From Candidatus Hydrogenedentota bacterium (GTDB lineage Bacteria; Hydrogenedentota; Hydrogenedentia; Hydrogenedentales; SLHB01): a stretch of DNA of 50,678 bases. The DNA lies in the NCBI GenBank assembly GCA_016209895.1, contig JACQVH010000148.1, positions 1-50,678 on the forward strand, given 5' to 3'. The notes under the pieces are model-generated. The model searched no databases. It was not told the DNA's origin and saw only the letters and a program-made list of their open reading frames with translations. The position numbers and the translations under genes are program-made. Positions within the stretch are counted from its first letter, which is position 1, and every line of letters begins with the position of its first letter. This document shows, piece after piece, positions 8,460-26,942 of the stretch.

Positions 8460-9230
8460 TCATGATGTATTTGTTTCTCCCAAGCTAGCTTCGACGAAAA
8501 CACGCACCAGTTCCGGGTCGAATTGCTTGCCGACCTCATCCTGCAGGTGGGCAAGGGCCTGTTCGCGACTGCTGGTACGTTCGCGATAGTGGCGCGGGCT
8601 GGTCATCGCGCAATAGACGTCCAGAATCTTCATGATGCGGGCAGGAAGTGGAATCTTTTCTCTTTCGAGACCTTCCGGATAGCCGGACCCATCAAAGCAT
8701 TCGTGATGGTAGCGCACGATATCCACCGTGTCCTTGAGCACGTCGGTCACGAGCACCAAGTTAGCGCCGAGATTGGTGTGCTGGCGAATGGTATCCCACT
8801 CGTCGTAGGTCAATAAGGCGTCCTTCAGGAGTATTTCATTCGGTATTTTGAGCTTGCCGATGTCACGAACCAGTGCGCCGCGCTCCAAGGTCAACTGGTC
8901 ATCGGCATTCAGGCCCAGCGCTCGAGCGAAGCTTGTGGCCAAGTCTTGAACACGGACCGAACTTCCCGGCATGAACGCCTCGCGGCAGTCAATGGCCTCG
9001 GCCAATAGCAGCAGCAACTGTTCGTGCCGTTCGCCCAGAACGAGCGCCGCTTCGACGGCCACCGAAATTTCCGAACTGCCGGCTATCACCACCGCCGTCG
9101 CGGGCGGCAATTCCTCGCGCGGGTCTACCCGAACAACCGCGACCTCCTTACTTCTCGAGGCCTCTGCCGCGGCCTTTTGTAGGCGGGTGTTCTTCCCCAC
9201 TACGGCAATCCGTTTGAGCATATCAACCAC
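8460..9230 (-). CDS. HD-GYP-type protein with altered HD motif
   Basis: Residues 1-65 form an unrecognised alpha/beta N-terminal region (VAVVRVDPREELPPATAVVIAG), possibly a degenerate receiver-like fold. From about residue 70 an HD-GYP domain follows: RDIGK (122-126) where the family has HDIGK, QHTNLGAN, HHECFDGSGYPEGL (the GYP motif), ILDVYCAMTSPRHYR. HD-GYP domains are metal-dependent phosphodiesterases for cyclic di-GMP. Here the His of the HD dyad is Arg122 (codon CGT), so one metal ligand is missing while the other motifs are intact. Activity may be reduced or lost, leaving a binding or scaffold role. It is on the same strand as the polysaccharide operon upstream, 126 nt away. Confidence 0.85.
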   Translation of the reverse strand: MVDMLKRIAVVGKNTRLQKAAAEASRSKEVAVVRVDPREELPPATAVVIAGSSEISVAVEAALVLGERHEQLLLLLAEAIDCREAFMPGSSVRVQDLATSFARALGLNADDQLTLERGALVRDIGKLKIPNEILLKDALLTYDEWDTIRQHTNLGANLVLVTDVLKDTVDIVRYHHECFDGSGYPEGLEREKIPLPARIMKILDVYCAMTSPRHYRERTSSREQALAHLQDEVGKQFDPELVRVFVEASLGETNTS

Positions 9231-13522: not shown

Positions 13523-14461
13523 CTATGATGCCAACCGCAGGCCGGCGCGCTGCTTGAGAACCGCGATCAGTTTTTCCACGGTAGCCACGGTGAAATCCCC
13601 TTGGATCGTCGGACCCTCCAATTTCGGGACACCACTGAGCACGATGCCGTAGTCGGCTTTGAGCCGAGCCCGTAGTTCCTCGAGACCCATGTTGGCCAAC
13701 AAGAACATGTGTTCCGGGTTCTGCGCCCAGGTATTGCACTCCACGGAGAGATGCACATTCAGCGTATCGTTGGGCGCCAAGTCGGCATAGCCCGTGATCG
13801 TGCCGATGCCGCGGACGATGGTCAAGGTATCCTCGGCGACGGCCTGCTCCGGCGGGACTCCAGCGAACGGCCGCGAACCGAGGAACGCCGCGAACCCGGT
13901 GCCTTGCCGATTATCAAAGGCCAGACTCAGCAAATGACTCGCCTCGACCGCGGGCGCCGCGATCGCAGCAATCTGAGCCCAACGGGCCCGGATAGCCTTG
14001 ACCACCGCTTCCGGCAGCACACCGGTAACTTCACCTACTAACACGCCGCGCCTGCGAAGCGCCAGCGCACCTTCACTCCGTTGTGCGGCCAGCGGACCGA
14101 GTCGTTGTTCATTGATGAATACCACGGATTTGGTCTGCCCAGAGTCCAAAGCGGCTTCGGCCAATACGGCGATTTGATGAGGCAGCACCCTCGCCAAAGC
14201 CCAAGTCGGCACATTGTGCTCGGGCTGCAGAAATCTGGCCGCCAGTTCCGGAGCAAGCAATGGTTCCACGACGACTTGGACAGAGGTTTGCGGCGTTACC
14301 AACTCGCGGTACGAGATTCGCGGCGCGCCGCGAATAATCCCGAAACTATTGTCCGCTACAAACGCCACCACCATGACGATGCAAGACACGATCGCGAGAA
14401 CTACGAAAACAATCGAGCAACCCTTCTTCAATCGCGGAACTCCCACCCCGGCATCAACCAT
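13523..14461 (-). CDS. Uncharacterised single-pass membrane protein in polysaccharide operon
   Basis: A 312-residue protein with one N-terminal transmembrane helix (residues 15-36, CSIVFVVLAIVSCIVMVVAFVA) and a large, presumably periplasmic, domain of alternating strands and helices. I do not recognise the domain. No catalytic motif is apparent; LSVECNTWAQNPEHMFLLANM near 235 contains one of only two cysteines. It is the first gene of the minus-strand run leading to wecB, wecA and the TPR protein, 45 nt ahead of wecB, so a role in envelope glycan assembly is likely by context only. Confidence 0.6.
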   Translation of the reverse strand: MVDAGVGVPRLKKGCSIVFVVLAIVSCIVMVVAFVADNSFGIIRGAPRISYRELVTPQTSVQVVVEPLLAPELAARFLQPEHNVPTWALARVLPHQIAVLAEAALDSGQTKSVVFINEQRLGPLAAQRSEGALALRRRGVLVGEVTGVLPEAVVKAIRARWAQIAAIAAPAVEASHLLSLAFDNRQGTGFAAFLGSRPFAGVPPEQAVAEDTLTIVRGIGTITGYADLAPNDTLNVHLSVECNTWAQNPEHMFLLANMGLEELRARLKADYGIVLSGVPKLEGPTIQGDFTVATVEKLIAVLKQRAGLRLAS

Positions 14462-14593
14462 TCACCGTGGGCTATCGTAGTGACCCCGCCCGGACTTGTC
14501 AAACCAGAGTTTCTTCCGACGTCACAACCCATCATCGGCGCCTGGGGTCGTGGGAACGGCCGATAACAATCTCTAGGGGAAGCCGAATTACGG

Positions 14594-14622
14594 TTGCATA
14601 GATATTGGGTCTGTGTTATCAT
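14594..14622 (+). promoter_or_regulatory. Candidate sigma-70 promoter for the 14.7-23.5 kb cluster
   Basis: TTGCAT (14594-14599) and TATCAT (14617-14622) lie 17 nt apart within an AT-rich island between divergent genes. The first start codon of the cluster is 113 nt downstream, leaving a leader of about 105 nt with no structure that I can identify. Assignment rests on spacing and base composition only. Confidence 0.5.
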
Positions 14623-14735
14623 GAGACACGAGATATTGTACTCAATGACAATTGGTCACTTTTCAGCATCTATATGTTGTGTTTTGGGACCGCTGACCTG
14701 CCTACGTGTACGTCTGCACGACGCCTGGGGTCATC

Positions 14736-16421
14736 ATGAACTCGGTTAGTCGCCTACTGTATGTGCCGGGTGAAGTCTCCAGCTTTCGGCAACTGCTGCC
14801 GAATCCTCTCCTGGCGTCTATTGTGGGCTCGCTGACAGAAGCCGGTCATTCCTCGGAGATTTGGGACTACGGTACGGTGGCGACGCTGGCGCGATACTGT
14901 CCCGAAGGGGAATCGGTTCGACTCGATAGCGTGCGGAACGCACCGGGCACTCGCGGCGTGGCAGGATGGTGGGACAGGGCGTTGCAGTTTTGGAACCCGC
15001 GGCCACCGGGATGTACGAATCCGGTAGTGCAGGCTCAAGTCTTGAATGAAATCACGAACCGCTTGGCCGCGGTTCGGGGGCTGGGCTTTGTGGTTCTTGC
15101 ACTGGACAGCGCGAACACGTGCCGAACCGCACGAAAAGTCGCCGAGGGTCTGAAGCAAAGGCGCCCGGAGATTTGCGTTTTTGCGGTGGGTGATTTCGTG
15201 GAAGTACTGGCGCAATCCGCGCCGGAACATTGGGCTCCCTTCGATGGTCTATGCGTCGGCGATTGCGAACTTTCTCTGATTGATTTGGCCGCGTGCCTGA
15301 AACGGCGAACTGCTTGGCGCTCGATTTCCAATCTCGTGTTCCGCCGCGGTGATCGGGTGGTACACACGCCGCAAGAGTATCTTAGTAACTGGTCCACGTG
15401 GCCATTTCCAAGTTACGATCCGGGGCTCTATCCCGCGCTTCAAGGCATGCAGAAATTCCACTTCTTTGCCGTGGAAGAACAGCGAGCTCGGTCGTACCGC
15501 GGCAAGCAGCAAACTTCGACGGATGGAATGGCACCATGGAGTAATGTCAAACCCCCGGAGAGAATTGCAGAAGAAATGCGGCGGCTTTCCGACAGTTGCG
15601 GCGTGTATTGTTGTCGGCTTCACGGCTCGACGGCAAGTATGGCGCACGTTCACGGGCTGGCGAATCATCTGCTCGCCCGGGGCGTTCATGTGCTGCATAG
15701 TCGCGGCTGCGATGCCCCTATTCTCGATCAAGCCGCCTTGGAAAGACTGGCCAAGTCGGGCTGCGATACCGTGACGTTTCATGTCGAGAGCGGAAGCCAA
15801 CGACTCTTGGAGGATTTCTACGCACGGAGCTTCGGGATCAGTCAGGTAGAAACCGTCTTGCGGGCCAGTCGCGATGCCGGCCTGTTCACGGTCATCCACC
15901 TCACCTATCCCTGCCCACAGGATGATCGTCACACGAAAGCCGAAACACTTCGGCTACTGGAACGGACGCGTCCGCACGCTGCGGTAGTAAGTGTGCCCGA
16001 GTTCCGTCTCGGCTTGGTGTGGAGTCGGAATTTGCCATCGCAGCGATCCGGATTCGAGAGTTGCCCGCGGCATCGTGGATCACATTGGTTCGCGCCGCGC
16101 GGCCACGGTGTGAACGCTTACCTGCGCTCGTCGCGCAGAGGCGAAGCCCGTGCGGCGGATCAGGCGCGTCAGGCGCAAGAAGCGCTGCTTCTTGAGATTG
16201 AGGATCGGGGCATTCTAACATGCTTCTCGGAGGAGGCGATTCTGGCGGCTCGAGCGGGTGGCTATGTCGGGCGAGAGGGTCAATTCTTGCGGATGTTGCA
16301 GACGTGCGACGCGAGCGAACTCGCGGCGCTCGCCGGCGAGTTCAATGACCGTATCTGCTCTCCAGCGAGTCGTCCCGGATGGCATCCGTATGTGCCAATG
16401 CGCGCCGCCGCAGGGAACTAA
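14736..16421 (+). CDS. B12-binding/radical-SAM-like protein lacking the 4Fe-4S cysteine motif
   Basis: About 561 residues. The first 200 resemble a cobalamin-binding-type Rossmann domain (NPLLASIVGSLTEAGHSSEIWDYG; FVVLALDSANTCRTARKVAEGL; FDGLCVGDCELSLIDLA). From residue 246 the order of a radical SAM barrel follows: VEEQRARSYRGKQ, then NVKPPERIAEEMRRL, LAKSGCDTVTFHVESGSQRLLEDFY and ASRDAGLFTVIHLTYPCPQDD. In active enzymes the first of these carries CxxxCxxC; here there is no cysteine between residues 246 and 280. The protein therefore should not hold the SAM-cleaving cluster. The start at 14736 (MNSVSRLL) is preferred over an upstream GTG. It is 3 nt from the ketosynthase gene. A paralogue-derived binding protein is the best guess. 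Confidence 0.7.
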   Translation: MNSVSRLLYVPGEVSSFRQLLPNPLLASIVGSLTEAGHSSEIWDYGTVATLARYCPEGESVRLDSVRNAPGTRGVAGWWDRALQFWNPRPPGCTNPVVQAQVLNEITNRLAAVRGLGFVVLALDSANTCRTARKVAEGLKQRRPEICVFAVGDFVEVLAQSAPEHWAPFDGLCVGDCELSLIDLAACLKRRTAWRSISNLVFRRGDRVVHTPQEYLSNWSTWPFPSYDPGLYPALQGMQKFHFFAVEEQRARSYRGKQQTSTDGMAPWSNVKPPERIAEEMRRLSDSCGVYCCRLHGSTASMAHVHGLANHLLARGVHVLHSRGCDAPILDQAALERLAKSGCDTVTFHVESGSQRLLEDFYARSFGISQVETVLRASRDAGLFTVIHLTYPCPQDDRHTKAETLRLLERTRPHAAVVSVPEFRLGLVWSRNLPSQRSGFESCPRHRGSHWFAPRGHGVNAYLRSSRRGEARAADQARQAQEALLLEIEDRGILTCFSEEAILAARAGGYVGREGQFLRMLQTCDASELAALAGEFNDRICSPASRPGWHPYVPMRAAAGN

Positions 16422-16424
16422 AGG

Positions 16425-17666
16425 ATGAAACGGCCGATTGTGGTGACAGGGATCGGAGTGTTGGCCTGCAACGGCCTGGGCCGGGCGGCGTTTTGGAAGG
16501 CGCTCGAGTTCGGCGTTTCCGGGATTCGTAGCCTTGACCGTTTTGACGCTTCGGAATTTCCTTGCCGCATCGCAGGTCAACTCTGGGATTTCAACCCGGA
16601 AGACTTTATGAAGAAGAGCGACGTTCGACACTGGCATCGGCACGTCCATCAAGCGGTGGCTTGTTCGAAACTAGCCGTCGAGGACGGGGAATTGTCGAAA
16701 GCGAAGTACGATCCGGAACGGTTGGCGGTAGCCATCGGCACCAGTATCGGCAGCCCCAACGAAGCCTACGAGGCGGAACAGGAAGCGTACGAGTCGCACG
16801 GCTACCGCAAGGTCAGCAAATTGGCGTCGTCGGCGTTCTCCGGGCATTCCGCGACGGTCCACGTGAGCATTGATTTCGGCCTGCGCGGTCCGGCCATTAC
16901 TATTTCCAGCGGTTGCGCCACCGGCCTGGACGTGCTGGTCTGGGGCGTGAATCAAATCCGCGCCGGACGCGCCGATGCCGCGGTGGTGGGCGCCACGGAG
17001 TCGCCTATTTTTCCCATGTCGTTTGCCACGGCGTGTTCGTTGGGCATTTTGTCCAAGCACAACGATGCGCCCGAAAAAGCGATGCGGCCATTCGATCGAA
17101 ACCGCGACGGGATCGTGTTGAGCGAGGGCGCCGTGGCATTGATTCTCGAACCCGAAGAACGCGCGCGTGCGCGAGGCGCGTACATTTATGGCGAAGTTGC
17201 CGGTTTCGGTTCGGCCTCCGAGGGGCGCAATCCGCTGATCCTGGATCGCCAGGGGGCGGCTCTGGCCCGAGCGGTGGAAGGCGCCATCCGCGATGCCGGC
17301 GCATCCCCGAATGAGATTGACCACATTCAAAGTCACGGGGTCTCGCTCGAGATGTACGACCATTGCGAGGCCAACGCCTACAAGAAGGCCTTCGGCGAGA
17401 CCGTCTGCCGAATCCCGATCTCGGCCATCAAATCCATGACCGGCCAGGCTTATTCCGCCGGCGGTCTGCTGGGCGCCGCGGCCGCGCTGCTCGCACTGAA
17501 TAAAGGAATCGTACCGCCGACGATCAATCTGGAGGATCCGGACCCCGCCTGTGACCTGGATTTTGTGCCCGGTCGGTCGCGGTTAAACGATATCCGGACC
17601 GCGCTGGTGACGGCGATGAGTTTCGGCGGCACGCATGGCGCGGCCGTCCTGAGACGGAGGAACTGA
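16425..17666 (+). CDS. FabF-like beta-ketoacyl-ACP synthase with Gln at the second active-site His
   Basis: A 413-residue thiolase-fold condensing enzyme. Nucleophile Cys164 is in ISSGCATG (family: ACSTG); His304 is in IQSHGVSLEMYDHCEAN (family: EAHGTST..ND..E). The third catalytic position, normally KSxxGH, reads KSMTGQ, so Gln341 (codon CAG) replaces the histidine. C-H-H enzymes condense malonyl-ACP with an acyl chain and the second His helps decarboxylation; with Gln, activity is likely altered. Cys164 is kept, so acyl loading is still possible. The gene lies 3 nt after the radical-SAM-like gene and its TGA overlaps the kinase ATG by 1 nt. No acyl carrier protein or acyltransferase gene is nearby. 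Specialised lipid or polyketide chemistry, or an acyl sensor, is inferred. Confidence 0.8.
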   Translation: MKRPIVVTGIGVLACNGLGRAAFWKALEFGVSGIRSLDRFDASEFPCRIAGQLWDFNPEDFMKKSDVRHWHRHVHQAVACSKLAVEDGELSKAKYDPERLAVAIGTSIGSPNEAYEAEQEAYESHGYRKVSKLASSAFSGHSATVHVSIDFGLRGPAITISSGCATGLDVLVWGVNQIRAGRADAAVVGATESPIFPMSFATACSLGILSKHNDAPEKAMRPFDRNRDGIVLSEGAVALILEPEERARARGAYIYGEVAGFGSASEGRNPLILDRQGAALARAVEGAIRDAGASPNEIDHIQSHGVSLEMYDHCEANAYKKAFGETVCRIPISAIKSMTGQAYSAGGLLGAAAALLALNKGIVPPTINLEDPDPACDLDFVPGRSRLNDIRTALVTAMSFGGTHGAAVLRRRN

Positions 17667-20173
17667 TGCTTGCGCCCGTAACCACCGCGCTGCTCTTGTT
17701 CTCGGGCTTCTCGTCCTTCGCCCTGGGCGTGCTGGTGGTTGCGCGCAATCCCTATCGCCGACCGCACCGGGCTTTTGGGCTGCTGGCTTTGAACCTTTCC
17801 TTGTGGGCCGTCGGTGTAGCTTGCGTAACGTTGAGTCAAACCGAGGATAGCGCCAGGTTCTGGGTATCGGCCACGTTTGTCGTGGCCAGCTTTTTGCCCG
17901 CGACGTTCTATCATTTCATTGGGCTGTTTGCGCGCCCTCGCTTCGAAGGACTACGCGGGTTGTTGGCGGCATTCTATGTCGCGGGGCTGGTTCTCGCCCT
18001 CTATGCCGCGACGCCTTGGTACGTCAGTAGCGTTTCGGTCGCCCCCGGTCAGATTCCGAGAGTTCGCTTTGGTCCTGCCTTGCACGCCTACGGCGTCTGC
18101 GTAACGTTGGCCATGTTGTTCTCGGCAGCGAATCTGTTCAACAAGCTTCGTCAAGCCGAAGGCGTCGAGCGGCGGCAAATCCAGCACGTGATTCTGGGCG
18201 TTTTTCTTTCCACTTTGCTGGCCACCCTGACGAACATCATCGCGCCGATTCTGGGCATCACTTCATTGGAGCCGTATGGCGCCACTTTCACGACCCTCAT
18301 GATGATGATCTTCGCGTACGCCATGGTGCGGTACCACTTGCTCGACGTGTGGGTGATCATTTCACGCACCACGGTTTACGCCCTAATCACCGGCTTCGTC
18401 GTGTTGACCTTTTTCAGCATGGTGTCGATCGTGCATCTAACCCTGAAGGCGCGAGGTGGCGCGACCGAATTGTTGCCGACTATCCTCACAGCCCTGGTCA
18501 TCGCACTGGTACTGCAGCCCATGAAGGAACGAACACAACTCTTTCTGGACCGGCTCATCGTGAAGCGGCGTTACGATGTTCAGGGTCTGTTGGCGCGTGT
18601 CAGCCAGTACGCGGCCCAAATGGTGAAACTACACGAGTTGCTGCGAACCGTCGCTGCCGATATCCAGCGCACCATGGGGGTCACCGTTCTCCGCATCCTC
18701 CTCGTGGATGAGCAGGAGCCGACGTCCGTGGTCACTGAACATTCCAGCGAGTCCGGCGAGATTGGCTGCCTCCGGCGCGAGTACGAGCCCTTGCTCGAAC
18801 GGCTGCGCTCTGATCCCGCGCCCCTCGTGCTGGAACAACTGGTCCACGGCCGACCAAGCCGGGACCGTGCCCGGCTGGCGGAGCAACTCGCCGAACTGGA
18901 TGCGTACGTCTGTTTGCCCCTCCAAACCACGGCCGGTCTCATTGGTTTGCTCACGCTCGGTCAAAAGACCTCGCGCGACATGTATTCGCGCGACGATTTG
19001 CTGGTCTTTACCGCCTTGGCCGGGCCCCTGGCCACGTCAATCGAGAATGCGCGACTCTACCGCAAACTGGAAGAGGCCAATCTCCACCGCGCTCGCATCC
19101 TTAGCAACATGCGTGGTGGTGTCATCGCCGTGGATATCTCGGGCAAAGTGTCCACGGTTAATCAAGGGGCGATTGACCTCTTTGGTCCCGTCCGATTGGG
19201 CCAGCCCTTGGATGCTCTGAACGCGGACGTTGCCCATATCCTGGATCACACCTTACGGACCGAGCAGGTGGTCACCGACTTTGAAACCATTGTGGTACGG
19301 CCCGACGGCGCCAAGGTTCCAGTAGTGATCTCGTCGTCCTGTTTGACCACGCGGGACGAGCAGCTCACGGGGGCGATGGCGGTCGTCTACGACCTGACGC
19401 AAGTCAAACGTCTGGAGCAGAACGTGCAGCGCGCCGACCGCCTTCTGTCGCTCGGAACGCTCGCCGCGGGAATGGCGCACGAGATCAAGAATCCGCTGGT
19501 CTCGATCAAGACGTTCACCCAGCTTCTGCTCAACCGCTACGAGGATGCCGAATTCCGCAGCACCTTTGCGGAGATAATCCCGCACGAAGTGGAACGCATT
19601 GACTCGATTGTGACACGTTTGCTGCATTTTGCGCGGCCGCAGCCCGCGGCGTTCGCTCCGCAGAATCTGCGCGTCATTATCGAGGAGGTGTTGGCGCTGG
19701 TGGAGAACCAGGTTCGCACCGGACACGTTACGGTCGAGACCGAGTTTCCGGACCATGTGATCGAGGTGTACGGAGACGAACAGCAGTTGCATCAGGCGTT
19801 TCTGAACCTGTGTCTGAACGCGATCGACGCGCTACGCCTGAAACAAGGCGGCTTCCTTCGGATCAACGCGCAGTATGATCGCATGTACGTACGACGCAAC
19901 GGGTATAAGCCGCGCCTCGAGATCGAATGCGTAAAGATTACTATTTCGGACACGGGCTGCGGAATTTCCGAAGACAACTTGCGTCACATCTTTACACCGT
20001 TTTTCACCACGAAGGAAAACGGGAGCGGGCTCGGTCTGTCCGTGGTGCATAGCATTGTGGCTGAACATGGGGGCGAAATTGACGTTGCCAGCCTGCCGGA
20101 CGAAGGGACCACGTTCACTCTTCGGTTGCCGTCGGCGGCGGGTAAGCGTCCGGTGGGAGTTCCAAACGAATGA
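17666..20173 (+). CDS. Membrane sensor histidine kinase (multi-TM, GAF, PAS, HisKA, HATPase)
   Basis: 835 residues. About nine hydrophobic segments fill residues 3-285, similar to the N-terminal 7TM sensor regions of PrsK-type kinases. A GAF-like domain follows (about 305-460), a PAS domain (about 470-590, MRGGVIAVDISGKVSTVN), then HisKA with phospho-acceptor His605 in MAHEIKNPLVSIKTF, and HATPase_c with N box (NLCLNAIDAL), G1 (DTGCGI), F box (FTPFFTTK) and G2 (GSGLGLSVV). All catalytic motifs are intact. The NtrB-like catalytic core fits the sigma-54 response regulator two genes downstream. Start overlaps the ketosynthase stop (TGATG). Confidence 0.88.
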   Translation: MLAPVTTALLLFSGFSSFALGVLVVARNPYRRPHRAFGLLALNLSLWAVGVACVTLSQTEDSARFWVSATFVVASFLPATFYHFIGLFARPRFEGLRGLLAAFYVAGLVLALYAATPWYVSSVSVAPGQIPRVRFGPALHAYGVCVTLAMLFSAANLFNKLRQAEGVERRQIQHVILGVFLSTLLATLTNIIAPILGITSLEPYGATFTTLMMMIFAYAMVRYHLLDVWVIISRTTVYALITGFVVLTFFSMVSIVHLTLKARGGATELLPTILTALVIALVLQPMKERTQLFLDRLIVKRRYDVQGLLARVSQYAAQMVKLHELLRTVAADIQRTMGVTVLRILLVDEQEPTSVVTEHSSESGEIGCLRREYEPLLERLRSDPAPLVLEQLVHGRPSRDRARLAEQLAELDAYVCLPLQTTAGLIGLLTLGQKTSRDMYSRDDLLVFTALAGPLATSIENARLYRKLEEANLHRARILSNMRGGVIAVDISGKVSTVNQGAIDLFGPVRLGQPLDALNADVAHILDHTLRTEQVVTDFETIVVRPDGAKVPVVISSSCLTTRDEQLTGAMAVVYDLTQVKRLEQNVQRADRLLSLGTLAAGMAHEIKNPLVSIKTFTQLLLNRYEDAEFRSTFAEIIPHEVERIDSIVTRLLHFARPQPAAFAPQNLRVIIEEVLALVENQVRTGHVTVETEFPDHVIEVYGDEQQLHQAFLNLCLNAIDALRLKQGGFLRINAQYDRMYVRRNGYKPRLEIECVKITISDTGCGISEDNLRHIFTPFFTTKENGSGLGLSVVHSIVAEHGGEIDVASLPDEGTTFTLRLPSAAGKRPVGVPNE

Positions 20174-22089
20174 ATGTCTATCTGGCCATCGCCGAGGATC
20201 GTGCGGTGGGGGAATCGTTGCGTGCGGCCTTGCCGGAAAACGATCTGGTGTTGATCGAATCCAGCGTCGAATCCGCCTTGCGCCGCCTGATTTCCATCAA
20301 GCCGGACGTAATCATCTTGGACGACAGCGCGATACCCAGCACGCCCGCCATGGACCGCGTGCGTGGCGCGGCGGGCGACGTGCCCTTGTTGGCATTGTCC
20401 AGTCACGGCGATGCGGAAACCCTTGCGGGATACACGCTGGCCGGGGTACAAGCCTGTTTGGCCAAGCCATTCTCGTGCGAAGCTTTGCGTGCGGAAGTGC
20501 AGCGGCTGGCGTTCGTGGACGAACCGGCCCTAGTTCCGACCGCGGGCACAAGTCATCTGCCGGAGTGGAGCGGGGCGCTGAGCCGGCATCAGACGGCCGT
20601 CCGCTGGTTGAGCCGGGTGGCCAGCCATATCAAAGACCCGTTTCGTCTGAGCCAAAGCTTGCTCGATTCGGTGGTGGATATCTTTGATGTTGCGCGCGGC
20701 GCGGTATTGCTCGAATCGAACGGCGGTGTGCGGGTGGTGGCGAGCCAAGGTCTTCCCCCGAATCTGGCCGAATCGCTCCGCTTCGGTTTCGCAACCGGGC
20801 TCATGCGCTGGTTTGAATCCAACGTCCGATTGATTGACCGGCTTCAGACGCGCGACGCGGCCGGCGCGGTCAAAGAGATGAGCTTGCTGGGAGCCCGGCT
20901 GGGCGCGCCTATCCTGTGTAGCGGCCGCGTTCATGGCGCCGTGCTGGTCGGCGAAAAATCGTCCGGTCTGGAGTATGGTCCGGAGGAGCGCGACCTGCTC
21001 TCCATGGTGGCGCGTTGTGCCTCCATCGCCTTCGAGAATGCGAAGCTTTACCAGGATGCTTCTCGGCAGCGCGCTCGACTAGACGCGCTGCTCGCAACGA
21101 TCACGGCCGGGGTCGTGGTGGTCCGTCCGGACAAGACCGTTTCGCTTCTCAATCAGGGCGCCGAACGGGCCCTCCAGGTACGGGCTGGGGATGTCCTCGG
21201 ACGAAGTGTGCAGAAGTTGGGTTCCGCCTTCGCCGACGTCGTCTTGCACACGCTGGCCGACGGCAAACCGCGCCTGCGCCAGGAAATCTTTGACCGCGCA
21301 ATTGACGCCCGACTGGGCTTGAGCGTCACGCCGATGGGGAGCGAGGGCGTGGTCGTCATCTTCTCGCGGCTGCCCGATGAATCCGCCCGGACCGAAGACA
21401 TTGCTTACAGTCCTTTCTGGGAATATTTGGCTTCGCGCGTGGCCCAGGAAATCAAGAATCCGATGGTCGCCATCAATACCTTCGCGCAACTGTTGCCGCG
21501 CAAATACGATTCCACCGATTTTCGCGAGGCCTTCGGTGAAGTAGTGCAAAAAGAGATCAGTCGGATCAACCTCGTGGTGGAAACACTGTTTGAGTTCGCG
21601 CGCCATCCCCGGCTGGTCCTGCAGCGGACCAACGTCAATGACACGCTCCAGAACGTGCTGCGCACCTTCGAGGACAAACTGCGCGCACATTCGATCCGGT
21701 TGGAGACCTCGCTCGATCCGTCCGTGTCCGAAGCGGAGCTCGATCCCATATTTTTCTCGCAGGCGATTCATAACGTGGTGCAAAATTCACTCGAGGCGAT
21801 GCCTGAAGGCGGAACGCTTTCCATCCGTACTCGACAGACCGGCGATAGCTGCGAGATTCTTATCGCCGATTCGGGTCCCGGTATCGCCGAGAAAGACGCG
21901 CCCCACGTATTCAAACCGTTCTTCAGCACCAAAGAACAGGGCATGGGACTGGGACTAACGGTGGCCAGCCGGATCATGCGCCAGCACAAGGGCGAGCTTC
22001 GACTCGTGAGCAACCCGGAAGGCGGCAGCGCGTTCGCCTTCCATTTACCGATTTCAGGACAAATGCATGCAGACCATCCTGGCAGTTGA
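20170..22089 (+). CDS. Hybrid REC-GAF-PAS kinase with phospho-acceptor His replaced by Gln (pseudo-histidine-kinase)
   Basis: 639 residues, starting inside the previous gene's stop (ATGA). Residues 1-115 are receiver-like, with PDVIILDDS (Asp51) and CLAKPF (Lys99), though the acidic pair at the start is only AED. A GAF-like domain (about 145-295) and a PAS domain (about 303-400) follow. The HisKA helix reads VAQEIKNPMVAINTF: Gln426 (CAG at 21445-21447) stands where the upstream kinase has His605 in the same motif. The ATP-binding N, G1, F and G2 boxes (NVVQNSLEAM, DSGPGI, FKPFFSTK, MGLGLTVA) are intact. It cannot autophosphorylate in the usual way; it may regulate or phosphorylate its partner, or receive phosphate on its own receiver. 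Confidence 0.85.
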   Translation: MNVYLAIAEDRAVGESLRAALPENDLVLIESSVESALRRLISIKPDVIILDDSAIPSTPAMDRVRGAAGDVPLLALSSHGDAETLAGYTLAGVQACLAKPFSCEALRAEVQRLAFVDEPALVPTAGTSHLPEWSGALSRHQTAVRWLSRVASHIKDPFRLSQSLLDSVVDIFDVARGAVLLESNGGVRVVASQGLPPNLAESLRFGFATGLMRWFESNVRLIDRLQTRDAAGAVKEMSLLGARLGAPILCSGRVHGAVLVGEKSSGLEYGPEERDLLSMVARCASIAFENAKLYQDASRQRARLDALLATITAGVVVVRPDKTVSLLNQGAERALQVRAGDVLGRSVQKLGSAFADVVLHTLADGKPRLRQEIFDRAIDARLGLSVTPMGSEGVVVIFSRLPDESARTEDIAYSPFWEYLASRVAQEIKNPMVAINTFAQLLPRKYDSTDFREAFGEVVQKEISRINLVVETLFEFARHPRLVLQRTNVNDTLQNVLRTFEDKLRAHSIRLETSLDPSVSEAELDPIFFSQAIHNVVQNSLEAMPEGGTLSIRTRQTGDSCEILIADSGPGIAEKDAPHVFKPFFSTKEQGMGLGLTVASRIMRQHKGELRLVSNPEGGSAFAFHLPISGQMHADHPGS

Positions 22090-23467
22090 CGACGAAGCCG
22101 GAATCCGCGAATCGTACCGCTTCATCCTGTCCGACAAGTACCGCGTCCTCCTGACGGATAAGGGCGAGAGCGCGCTCCGAATCCTCCAGCAATCTCACGT
22201 GGACTTGGTGCTGCTCGATTTGATGATGCCGGGTATCAGCGGCATGGAGGTACTGGCCGAGTTGTCTCGGCGCGGCGAGTCCGTACCGGTCATCGTGATC
22301 ACGGCGCTGAACTCCGTCGCCAACGCGGTAGCCGCGATTAAGCAGGGCGCGCGCGAATACATCATCAAACCGTTCGACGTGGATCAGTTGCAGCGCGCCG
22401 TGGCCCGCACACTCGAAGAGCAGAAGCAGCGGCAGGAATTGCGTGTGCTGCGCGAGGAAGGGGTGCGGGGCTTCGAGTCGCTCATTGGCGACAGTTCGGC
22501 CTTCCAGGCTATGATCGCCTTAGCGCGCAAGGCCACGGCCGTGGACTCCACGGTCCTGGTCACCGGCGAGAGCGGTACCGGAAAAGACTTGCTTGCGCGG
22601 GCCATTCATTCCGGCGGCAAACGCAAGCGCGAGCCGTTCGTCGTGGTTTCGTGCTGTGCTATCCCCGCCACCCTCGTTGAGAGCGAATTGTTCGGTCACG
22701 AAAAAGGGGCCTTTACGGGCGCCACGGAGCGCCGCATTGGGAAAGTGCAGATCGCGGACCGCGGAACCTTGTTCCTCGACGAGATTGGCGAGATGCCGCT
22801 CGAAGCGCAGGCCAAGATGCTGCGCGTGCTTCAGGACGGGCAGTTCTATCCTATCGGCAGTTCAAAGCTCGTAGAAGTGGACGCACGGTTCATCTGTGCC
22901 ACCAACCGCAATTTGCGCGAGGCCGTAACGACGGGTATCTTTCGAGAAGACCTGTTCTATCGTGTGAACGTGCTGCCCATCGAGGTTCCGCCGTTGCGCC
23001 GCCGCCGGGAAGACATCCCGGGCCTCGTCACCCATTTCCTGGTCAAGTATGTCCCGCGGATTAACGCCCAAGCCCGGCAGTTCAGCCCGGAAGCGTTGTT
23101 GGCGCTCGCGAGCTACTCCTGGCCCGGGAATATCCGCGAACTCGAGAACGTGCTGCAGCGGGTCCTGGTGCATCACAACCAGGAGACGGTCATTCGTGCG
23201 GAACATTTGTCCGGTATCCTTCCAACCAGTCCCGCAGAAGACCTGTCCGACATCGCCGCCTTCGAAGGATTCCCGCTCGAAGAAGCCACCAGACGTCTCG
23301 AACGACACCTGATTCTGCGTGCGCTGAGTAGGTGCGGGTTCGTGAAGTCTCGCGCCGCGGAACTTCTGGGAACCACCCGCCGAATTCTGGGCTATAAAAT
23401 GGAACAACTGGGCATCGAGTCAAAGTCTAGCCCCGAAGAAGAGGAGGCGGACGAGAAAGCGTCATGA
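22067..23467 (+). CDS. NtrC-family sigma-54-dependent response regulator
   Basis: 466 residues: receiver domain ([13 protein letters not shown]; phospho-Asp in [10 protein letters not shown], Lys in YIIKPFD), AAA+ domain with Walker A GESGTGKD, the sigma-54 contact motif GAFTGA, Walker [12 protein letters not shown], arginine-finger region [22 protein letters not shown], and a Fis-type HTH near 415-445 ([22 protein letters not shown]). It activates RpoN promoters after phosphorylation. The gene overlaps the pseudo-kinase gene by 23 nt, so the two are made together. The partner kinase is presumably the product at 17666-20173. Targets are unknown; I found no clear -24/-12 element to assign. Confidence 0.93.
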
Positions 23468-25835: not shown

Positions 25836-26942
25836 TCAAGAGCGGCGAATGGGAAGACAAGCGTTCTCCTGCGCCTGGACCTTCTCTGTCCTTGTGTCTG
25901 ATGGCGCTGGTAATGGTCGTGGAATGAATGGTTGGCTCTCTGGTTTAACGACCACATTCCGACAGAAATTCTGATATTGATAGACATCAACGCGAGTCAG
26001 CAGCTTGGTCGTTTCGAGAAGCACGTGGCCTTCCCCGGATAGCAGCCTGACTCGGTACGAGTTGTCCTTGACAAGATTTCTGGCGGCCTCTACCGAAGTA
26101 TGATAGCCGCGCTTCTCTTCCTGTCTCGTGCAAGCCGTAACAAGTATGAAGCTGATGTTATCGTAAGCATCGAGGTCCCATCCTTCCAGTTCAGCCAACT
26201 GTGACTCATAGCTGGCATTGGAAAGGTCAGGTGTTTCCACCAGGACAACGATGGGTGGAGACCGGCGTTTGTACTTCCCCGCGAATTCCTCGAGCACAAG
26301 TGTGGAGTGATACTTGCGTTCGCTGGACGCATAGGAATAATCAAAATCGAGCACTTCCGGCTTCATCGGAAAGCGTTCCTGGGTGGTCTCGTGTTTCTGC
26401 GTGTCCACGTGATAGGATTCGATCTCGACGATCAAAGTATTGCCTTCAATACCGACGATATCCGTGCTTAGATACCGTCCCTCTGCTCGCGCCGCCGCGC
26501 GGACCTCGGGCAGAGGAGTTACAAGGGTCGCTTTTTGATGCGCGAGATCCAATTCGAATAGGCCGCCATCACCATAAATCTCCGACGTGGAAACGTACAG
26601 ATACCACCCGGATGGCGACCACGCAATTCCGGTCACGTCCGACGCCCACAGGGGGTCCTGCCAGAACAAACTTGGCCCTCCCCATTTGCAGTCGGGAAGC
26701 CCTTCCACGACCAATCCTTCAACCCCGGTCAAAATGACACCGATATATTCGCCGATGGCGTCTGCGTCGAAGACATACACGCTGAAAGGGCTGTTGGCGA
26801 CCGAGTGTAATCCATGGGTCAGGCTTTTGCCTGTGACTACTAGCTTGTCGCTTGGCGGAGGAGTTTCGGAAGCGTTCAGCGAAACCCCAAAAACCAGCGA
26901 AATGAAGGTAACCATCATGGCGCTCACCCATATCCGCTGCAA
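25836..26942 (-). CDS. Exported protein of unknown function
   Basis: 368 residues with a Sec-type signal peptide (WVSAMMVTFISLVFGVSLNASE). The mature part is rich in beta strands and contains TGIAWSPSGWYLYVSTSEIYGDGGLFELDLAHQKATLV, which resembles one blade of a WD40/TolB-like beta propeller, but a full propeller is not evident. I do not recognise the family. It is divergent from the beta-helix protein gene (97 nt apart) and convergent with the sulfatase gene. Confidence 0.6.
   Translation of the reverse strand: MQRIWVSAMMVTFISLVFGVSLNASETPPPSDKLVVTGKSLTHGLHSVANSPFSVYVFDADAIGEYIGVILTGVEGLVVEGLPDCKWGGPSLFWQDPLWASDVTGIAWSPSGWYLYVSTSEIYGDGGLFELDLAHQKATLVTPLPEVRAAARAEGRYLSTDIVGIEGNTLIVEIESYHVDTQKHETTQERFPMKPEVLDFDYSYASSERKYHSTLVLEEFAGKYKRRSPPIVVLVETPDLSNASYESQLAELEGWDLDAYDNISFILVTACTRQEEKRGYHTSVEAARNLVKDNSYRVRLLSGEGHVLLETTKLLTRVDVYQYQNFCRNVVVKPESQPFIPRPLPAPSDTRTEKVQAQENACLPIRRS

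Follow-up and report, generated by a model that had tools for sequence, protein, structure and literature searches.

What becomes of a radical SAM protein once the motif that holds its cluster is gone? The question is raised by one gene in a 50,678-nucleotide stretch of DNA (the window; contig JACQVH010000148.1) from a Candidatus Hydrogenedentota bacterium whose genome amounts to 5.34 Mb on 312 contigs. The cluster is the defining feature of radical SAM proteins. A sequence-only reading of the window had noted that the start of the barrel in this gene is free of Cys, and had proposed a natural radical SAM pseudoenzyme. We conclude that an enzyme seems to have been converted here to another purpose, a binding or regulatory role being the most likely.

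A radical SAM fold without the cluster motif

The gene and its former cluster loop are located as follows.

14736 to 16421, + strand: radical-SAM-fold protein without CxxxCxxC (open reading frame from GTG at 14706, 571 amino acids)
15471 to 15527, + strand: former [4Fe-4S] loop, V256 to D274 of the 571 residues, without Cys, placed by homologue alignment and model

The start codon is probably the ATG at 14736, giving 561 amino acids, and residue numbers here (V256, S364, D407 and so on) follow the 571-residue numbering unless stated. Read in frame with the open reading frame at 14706-16421, positions 15471-15600 translate to VEEQRARSYRGKQQTSTDGMAPWSNVKPPERIAEEMRRLSDSC, and the first Cys after V256 is C298. 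The Cys-free barrel start is thus confirmed, the CxxxCxxC motif of the superfamily is absent from the window protein, and the later radical SAM landmarks described with it are present in the translation. In line with the earlier claim that a frameshift restores no cysteines, the overlapping frame on the same strand (15349-15774) is likewise without CxxxCxxC.

The profile search and structure prediction proposed with that reading were both performed. The Pfam profile Radical_SAM (PF04055) matches residues 276-409 with 30.5 bits, above its gathering cutoff of 29.5. Its match begins only at profile position 22 of 166, so the profile start with the Cys motif is left unmatched. An AlphaFold2 model, run with a 50-sequence alignment, reached a pLDDT of 83 and a pTM of 0.87, with values below 50 in the C-terminal tail and in the former Cys loop (residues 255-266 in 561-residue numbering). 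The best Foldseek matches of this model in the PDB are the radical SAM enzymes TsrM (E 4e-16), AprD4, MgmA, OxsB, CysS, and TokK, and a profile search gave an E of 1.9e-15 to CysS. As modelled, the protein has a B12-type (class B-like) radical SAM fold, with the Rossmann-like N-terminal half, the barrel, and the C-terminal helices of these six enzymes. All six bind a [4Fe-4S] cluster via CxxxCxxC, whereas this motif is missing from the window protein and 50 relatives, which have a derived site, GSQR / PxPxDDxHTxxE.

Among NCBIfam models, the matches to B12-type radical SAM families are below cutoff. The best named one, rSAM_ApyD (NF050148), scores 54.9 bits and is matched by 37 of 50 family members, but this is far under its curated cutoff of 750 bits, and the window, unlike rSAM_ApyD and the other B12-type equivalogs, offers no RiPP context. 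The sequence-only reading had suggested that the protein might serve as a passive carrier of SAM, B12, or a substrate. A B12-binding-like N-terminal half and a retained SAM-type barrel, in a fold that agrees with B12-type enzymes, are in keeping with such a role. On the other side, the B12-binding Pfam (PF02310) reaches only 11.6 bits against a cutoff of 32.1 in the window protein and is matched by just 11 of 50 family members, and the residues after strands β4 and β5 have been replaced. This replacement favors a changed ligand, and we consider a passive carrier improbable.

Repeated loss of the cysteines under purifying selection

The family is nearly universal among the 68 Hydrogenedentota genomes, and our sample comprised 59 gene copies from this phylum and seven from other phyla. 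In the alignment, CxxxCxxC is absent from 51 of the 59 Hydrogenedentota homologues, and three Cys are kept in the other eight. By comparison, all seven homologues from other phyla have three Cys in place, with canonical spacing in six (CIYTCPFC, CPNKCHFC, CPNRCFFC, CPNSCFFC, and CPYSCAFC) and CAWGKCNFC in the divergent G114, and an aromatic residue precedes Cys3 in every one of them. Relative to these active-type relatives, the catalytic residues have been lost. The aromatic residue is missing from all eight three-Cys members of the phylum (CDKTCNHC, CDQTCNHC, CVNTCNDC, CLDHCRAC, CGGSCRGC, CDFTCHGC, CPRLCYSC, and CSQQCPAC). Single cysteines also survive: Cys1 alone in G038 and G043 and, within one genus, Cys2 alone in G009 and Cys3 alone in its sister G021. 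Among the Cys-less copies, the former loop varies in both length and sequence.

Motif-bearing homologues, which the sequence-only reading had named as evidence against itself if found at the same place, thus do exist, and homologues in the phylum lack the motif in most cases rather than all. There is, however, no sign of the assembly error that it had named alongside them. An assembly error or frameshift as the cause of the missing Cys is rejected, as 51 genes share the loss, and the contrast between 51 of 59 Cys-less homologues inside the phylum and seven of seven three-Cys homologues outside it places the loss beyond chance.

In a gene tree built with the motif columns excluded, the Cys state changes at least four times (3-4 in bootstraps), and in a tree of four partner proteins it changes twice. 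Since the outgroups all bear three Cys, these changes are losses. On these trees, the motif was lost at least two times; two is a safe minimum, and we claim no higher number because several inner branches are open.

The Cys-less copies could also be functionless enzymes in decay, that is, pseudogenes in slow loss, and the variable loop and the piecemeal loss in G009 and G021 would fit such a course. The selection data contradict it. Nei-Gojobori dN/dS estimates between close gene pairs gave ω values of 0.095 (G004-G020), 0.12 (G009-G021), 0.10 (G036-G041), 0.16 (G026-G034 and G061-G065), and 0.18 (G033-G067) for Cys-less pairs with measurable dS, with one outlier at 0.33 (G037-G055, dS 1.6). 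Cys-bearing Hydrogenedentota pairs gave 0.14-0.16 and the canonical-motif pair G082-G100 gave 0.10. The values of the Cys-less pairs are therefore those of working genes, with no measurable relaxation after the loss, and by this measure the Cys-less genes are under purifying selection just as the Cys-bearing ones are. In most pairs the neighboring ketosynthase and first histidine kinase (HK1) are more constrained still. Reading frames are open in nearly the whole phylum, new residues are invariant, and the promoter and C-terminus are conserved. Neutral decay is thus rejected by ω, and we give decay almost no credence.

Taken with the confident fold, the repeated loss and ω values near 0.1 give good support to a pseudoenzyme in the sense of a selected protein with no canonical cluster site, and within the radical SAM superfamily we rank the family as a branch of pseudoenzymes. 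A literature search limited to one collection found no papers on radical SAM pseudoenzymes or on this Hydrogenedentota operon. A cluster-free fold kept under selection across a phylum would be a clear series of natural pseudoenzymes whose stages can all be seen in living lineages: canonical, three Cys without the aromatic residue, one Cys, and none. It also calls for caution in annotating such Cys-less genes as radical SAM enzymes.

Invariant polar residues after strands β4 and β5

Two conserved segments follow strands β4 and β5, and strand order places them at the barrel end that holds SAM in radical SAM enzymes.

15792 to 15803, + strand: GSQR after strand β4, with S364 and Q365 invariant in 59 of 59 phylum homologues
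15909 to 15944, + strand: PxPxDDxHTxxE after strand β5, with D407, H409, and E413 invariant in the phylum

Among the Cys-less members, S364 and Q365 are found in 51 of 51 and D407, H409, and E413 in 50 of 50. The eight three-Cys members of the phylum share all five residues, whereas D407 and H409 occur in none of the seven homologues from other phyla. From strand order, the five residues would adjoin one another at the top of the barrel. They are retained even in orphan copies, encoded outside the operon described below and only about 20-28% identical to the window protein. This conserved set is our chief reason for assigning the barrel a new function without radical chemistry. We propose that, on the stem of the phylum, the cluster site would already have been relaxed, with the aromatic residue before Cys3 gone, and that the new, strictly conserved polar set (S364-Q365 after β4 and D407-x-H409...E413 after β5) would have arisen there, the three cysteines then being lost at least twice through piecemeal decay.

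A catalytic Fe-S cluster might still be held by other ligands, either non-canonical Cys and His or cysteines of a partner. C353 (49 of 51 Cys-less members) and H409 (50 of 50) could be cited in its favor. Yet C353 is the only near-invariant Cys left, one such residue being too few for a cluster, and by strand order it precedes β4, away from the cluster end of the barrel. C403, found mainly in Cys-less members (36 of 50, against one of the eight three-Cys members), is not universal. An alternative site built from the remaining conserved Cys is therefore rejected, and a cluster held by any such ligands is very improbable.

The D-x-H...E site could equally be catalytic or metal-binding. Indeed, the protein may have become a non-radical enzyme with a new active site (Asp-x-His...Glu and Ser-Gln), performing polar and perhaps metal-dependent chemistry on the ancestral substrate and feeding the adjoining ketosynthase. 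This would account for acid/base residues at the C-terminal ends of β4 and β5 that are invariant in 50-51 of the 51 Cys-less members, orphans too, and the ketosynthase itself retains its nucleophile Cys and first His. Nevertheless, family searches found no known enzyme with such a motif set, and the remaining operon genes are for signaling, so that we regard a new enzyme activity as rather unlikely.

Operon, proposed role, and control region

Four genes follow the radical-SAM-like gene.

16425 to 17666, + strand: FabF-like ketosynthase, Cys-His-Gln (C164, H304, and Q341 replacing the second His), from profiles and alignment
17666 to 20173, + strand: HK1, sensor histidine kinase, 7TM-GAF-PAS-HisKA-HATPase, His kept (MAHEIKNP), from profiles and alignment
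20170 to 22089, + strand: HK2, REC-GAF-PAS-HisKA-HATPase, phospho-acceptor His replaced by Gln (VAQEIKNP, Q426), from profiles and alignment
22067 to 23467, + strand: NtrC-type sigma54-dependent response regulator, phospho-acceptor Asp present (LLDLMMP), from profiles and alignment

The radical-SAM-like gene is the first gene of the operon in 37 genomes. The ketosynthase lies directly downstream on the same strand in 36 relatives, HK1, HK2, and the regulator come after it wherever the contig is long enough, and the first four genes stand in the same order in five genomes from other phyla. Two candidate ketosynthase operons without the radical-SAM-like gene (G001 and G008) were rejected, as their contigs end immediately before the ketosynthase on its upstream side.

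The ketosynthase matches FabF (KAS II) over its whole length (E 7.6e-88 to 1j3n), and its Cys and first His are kept in all members read. It differs from FabF in lacking the full Cys-His-His triad: in place of the second His, phylum members as well as G082 and G100 have Gln, and G319, G330, and G194 have Asn. A Cys-His-Gln/Asn ketosynthase may still be active. Another FabF-like gene, separate and more distant, occurs in most genomes with the operon ketosynthase.

From their sequences, HK1 and the regulator appear intact. They share the 7TM-GAF kinase and NtrC-type architecture of PrsK/PrsR of PEP-CTERM (XrtA) systems but fall short of the NCBIfam cutoffs (99.8 against 300 and 367.8 against 502.6 bits). 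HK2, in contrast, lacks the H-box His of a histidine kinase; at this position all 25 phylum members read have Gln, and all five members from other phyla have His. Pseudo-histidine kinases that steer signaling pathways are known, namely DivL (PMC4211667) and a ChrS variant (PMC9491836). HK2 resembles them in lacking the phospho-acceptor His while keeping the HATPase domain, and a true kinase is encoded in its own operon; it differs in lineage and input domains, and in being linked to a ketosynthase and to a radical-SAM-fold protein that lacks the cluster. Two of the five operon proteins, the radical-SAM-like protein and HK2, thus lost their defining residue within Hydrogenedentota.

The operon and the new invariant residues point to a ligand-binding, regulatory, or non-radical role rather than that of a plain carrier. 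The explanation that we favor, with moderate confidence, is that a radical-SAM-fold protein, now without a cluster, has been repurposed for ligand binding and, in most lineages, coupled to the lipid-type ketosynthase and the two-component cascade. Such a protein would no longer build the SAM-cleaving [4Fe-4S] cluster, and the top of its barrel would bind a small ligand without radical chemistry. Ketosynthases use acyl thioesters, and the nearest solved relatives, CysS and TokK, act on pantetheine-bound substrates and hold them in their structures. Because of this, and because the next gene encodes a ketosynthase, our best guess is that the ligand would be of the acyl-thioester type. In lineages with the operon, the state of this ligand would be relayed, with the ketosynthase and the His-less HK2, to HK1 and the sigma54 regulator. 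Against signaling coupling, the operon kinases carry sensor domains of their own (GAF, PAS, and 7TM).

A more specific scenario, which we offer only tentatively, is that the radical SAM enzyme and the histidine kinase of one operon were disarmed in the phylum ancestor and, together with the altered-triad ketosynthase, came to serve a sigma54 two-component cascade as its ligand-sensing input. If true, this would be a signaling operon largely of disarmed enzymes, with the radical SAM barrel as a cluster-free ligand-binding domain. The family, with a His-less kinase in the same operon, also provides a system for examining the cost, timing, and consequences of the loss of a metal cofactor.

Families f6, f10, and others have the radical-SAM-like gene alone, without the ketosynthase operon. 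As such orphan copies exist, the protein cannot be merely a part of the signaling system, and in these families it would retain its ligand role alone. In family f6 (L054, L055, L057, and L066), a sugar-kinase gene, PfkB-like by eye, directly follows the orphan.

The control region and the C-terminal tail are also conserved.

14589 to 14645, + strand: predicted promoter/operator, TTGCAT (-35) ... TGTTATCAT (extended -10), conserved in the upstream profile
16407 to 16418, + strand: C-terminal tail AAGN (family consensus AVGN-COOH), peptide kept with variable codons

The predicted promoter contains the direct repeats ATATTGGGT (14602) and ATATTGTAC (14633), with a further copy, ATATGTTGTGT, downstream of it at 14672, and the best autocorrelation offset in the region is 30 bp. 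Across the family, ATATnGTGT direct repeats lie 30 bp apart, often with a third copy further downstream. The promoter-like element TTTnCTTGCATATATATnGTGTTCGTGnTAnnATnnnnnCGAnATATTGTGT precedes family members throughout the phylum (48 upstream regions), orphan copies among them, and persists even where the genome lacks the regulator encoded in the operon. In a pattern search of the genome that contains the window, no clean match other than the window copy turned up, and five other genomes each had a single match to a longer pattern, in every case at the radical-SAM-like gene. An Rfam search of the leader region matched no family and no riboswitch, and a scan of the operon's upstream region for sigma54 sites generally gave nothing above shuffles.

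AVGN-COOH ends most phylum members and is absent or different in other phyla. We rejected the Shine-Dalgarno sequence of the next gene as the sole cause of this tail, because its codons vary and AVAN is kept in several orphans without a ketosynthase. The tail may serve in docking or insertion.

Elsewhere in the window, the open reading frames at 13523-14461 and 25836-26942 (both - strand; 312 and 368 amino acids) have no Pfam or NCBIfam match. An HD-GYP protein is encoded after both kinases in other phyla (L044, L121, L122, L123, and L125), and the window has an HD-GYP gene (8460-9230) about 5 kb upstream of the operon, on the opposite strand.
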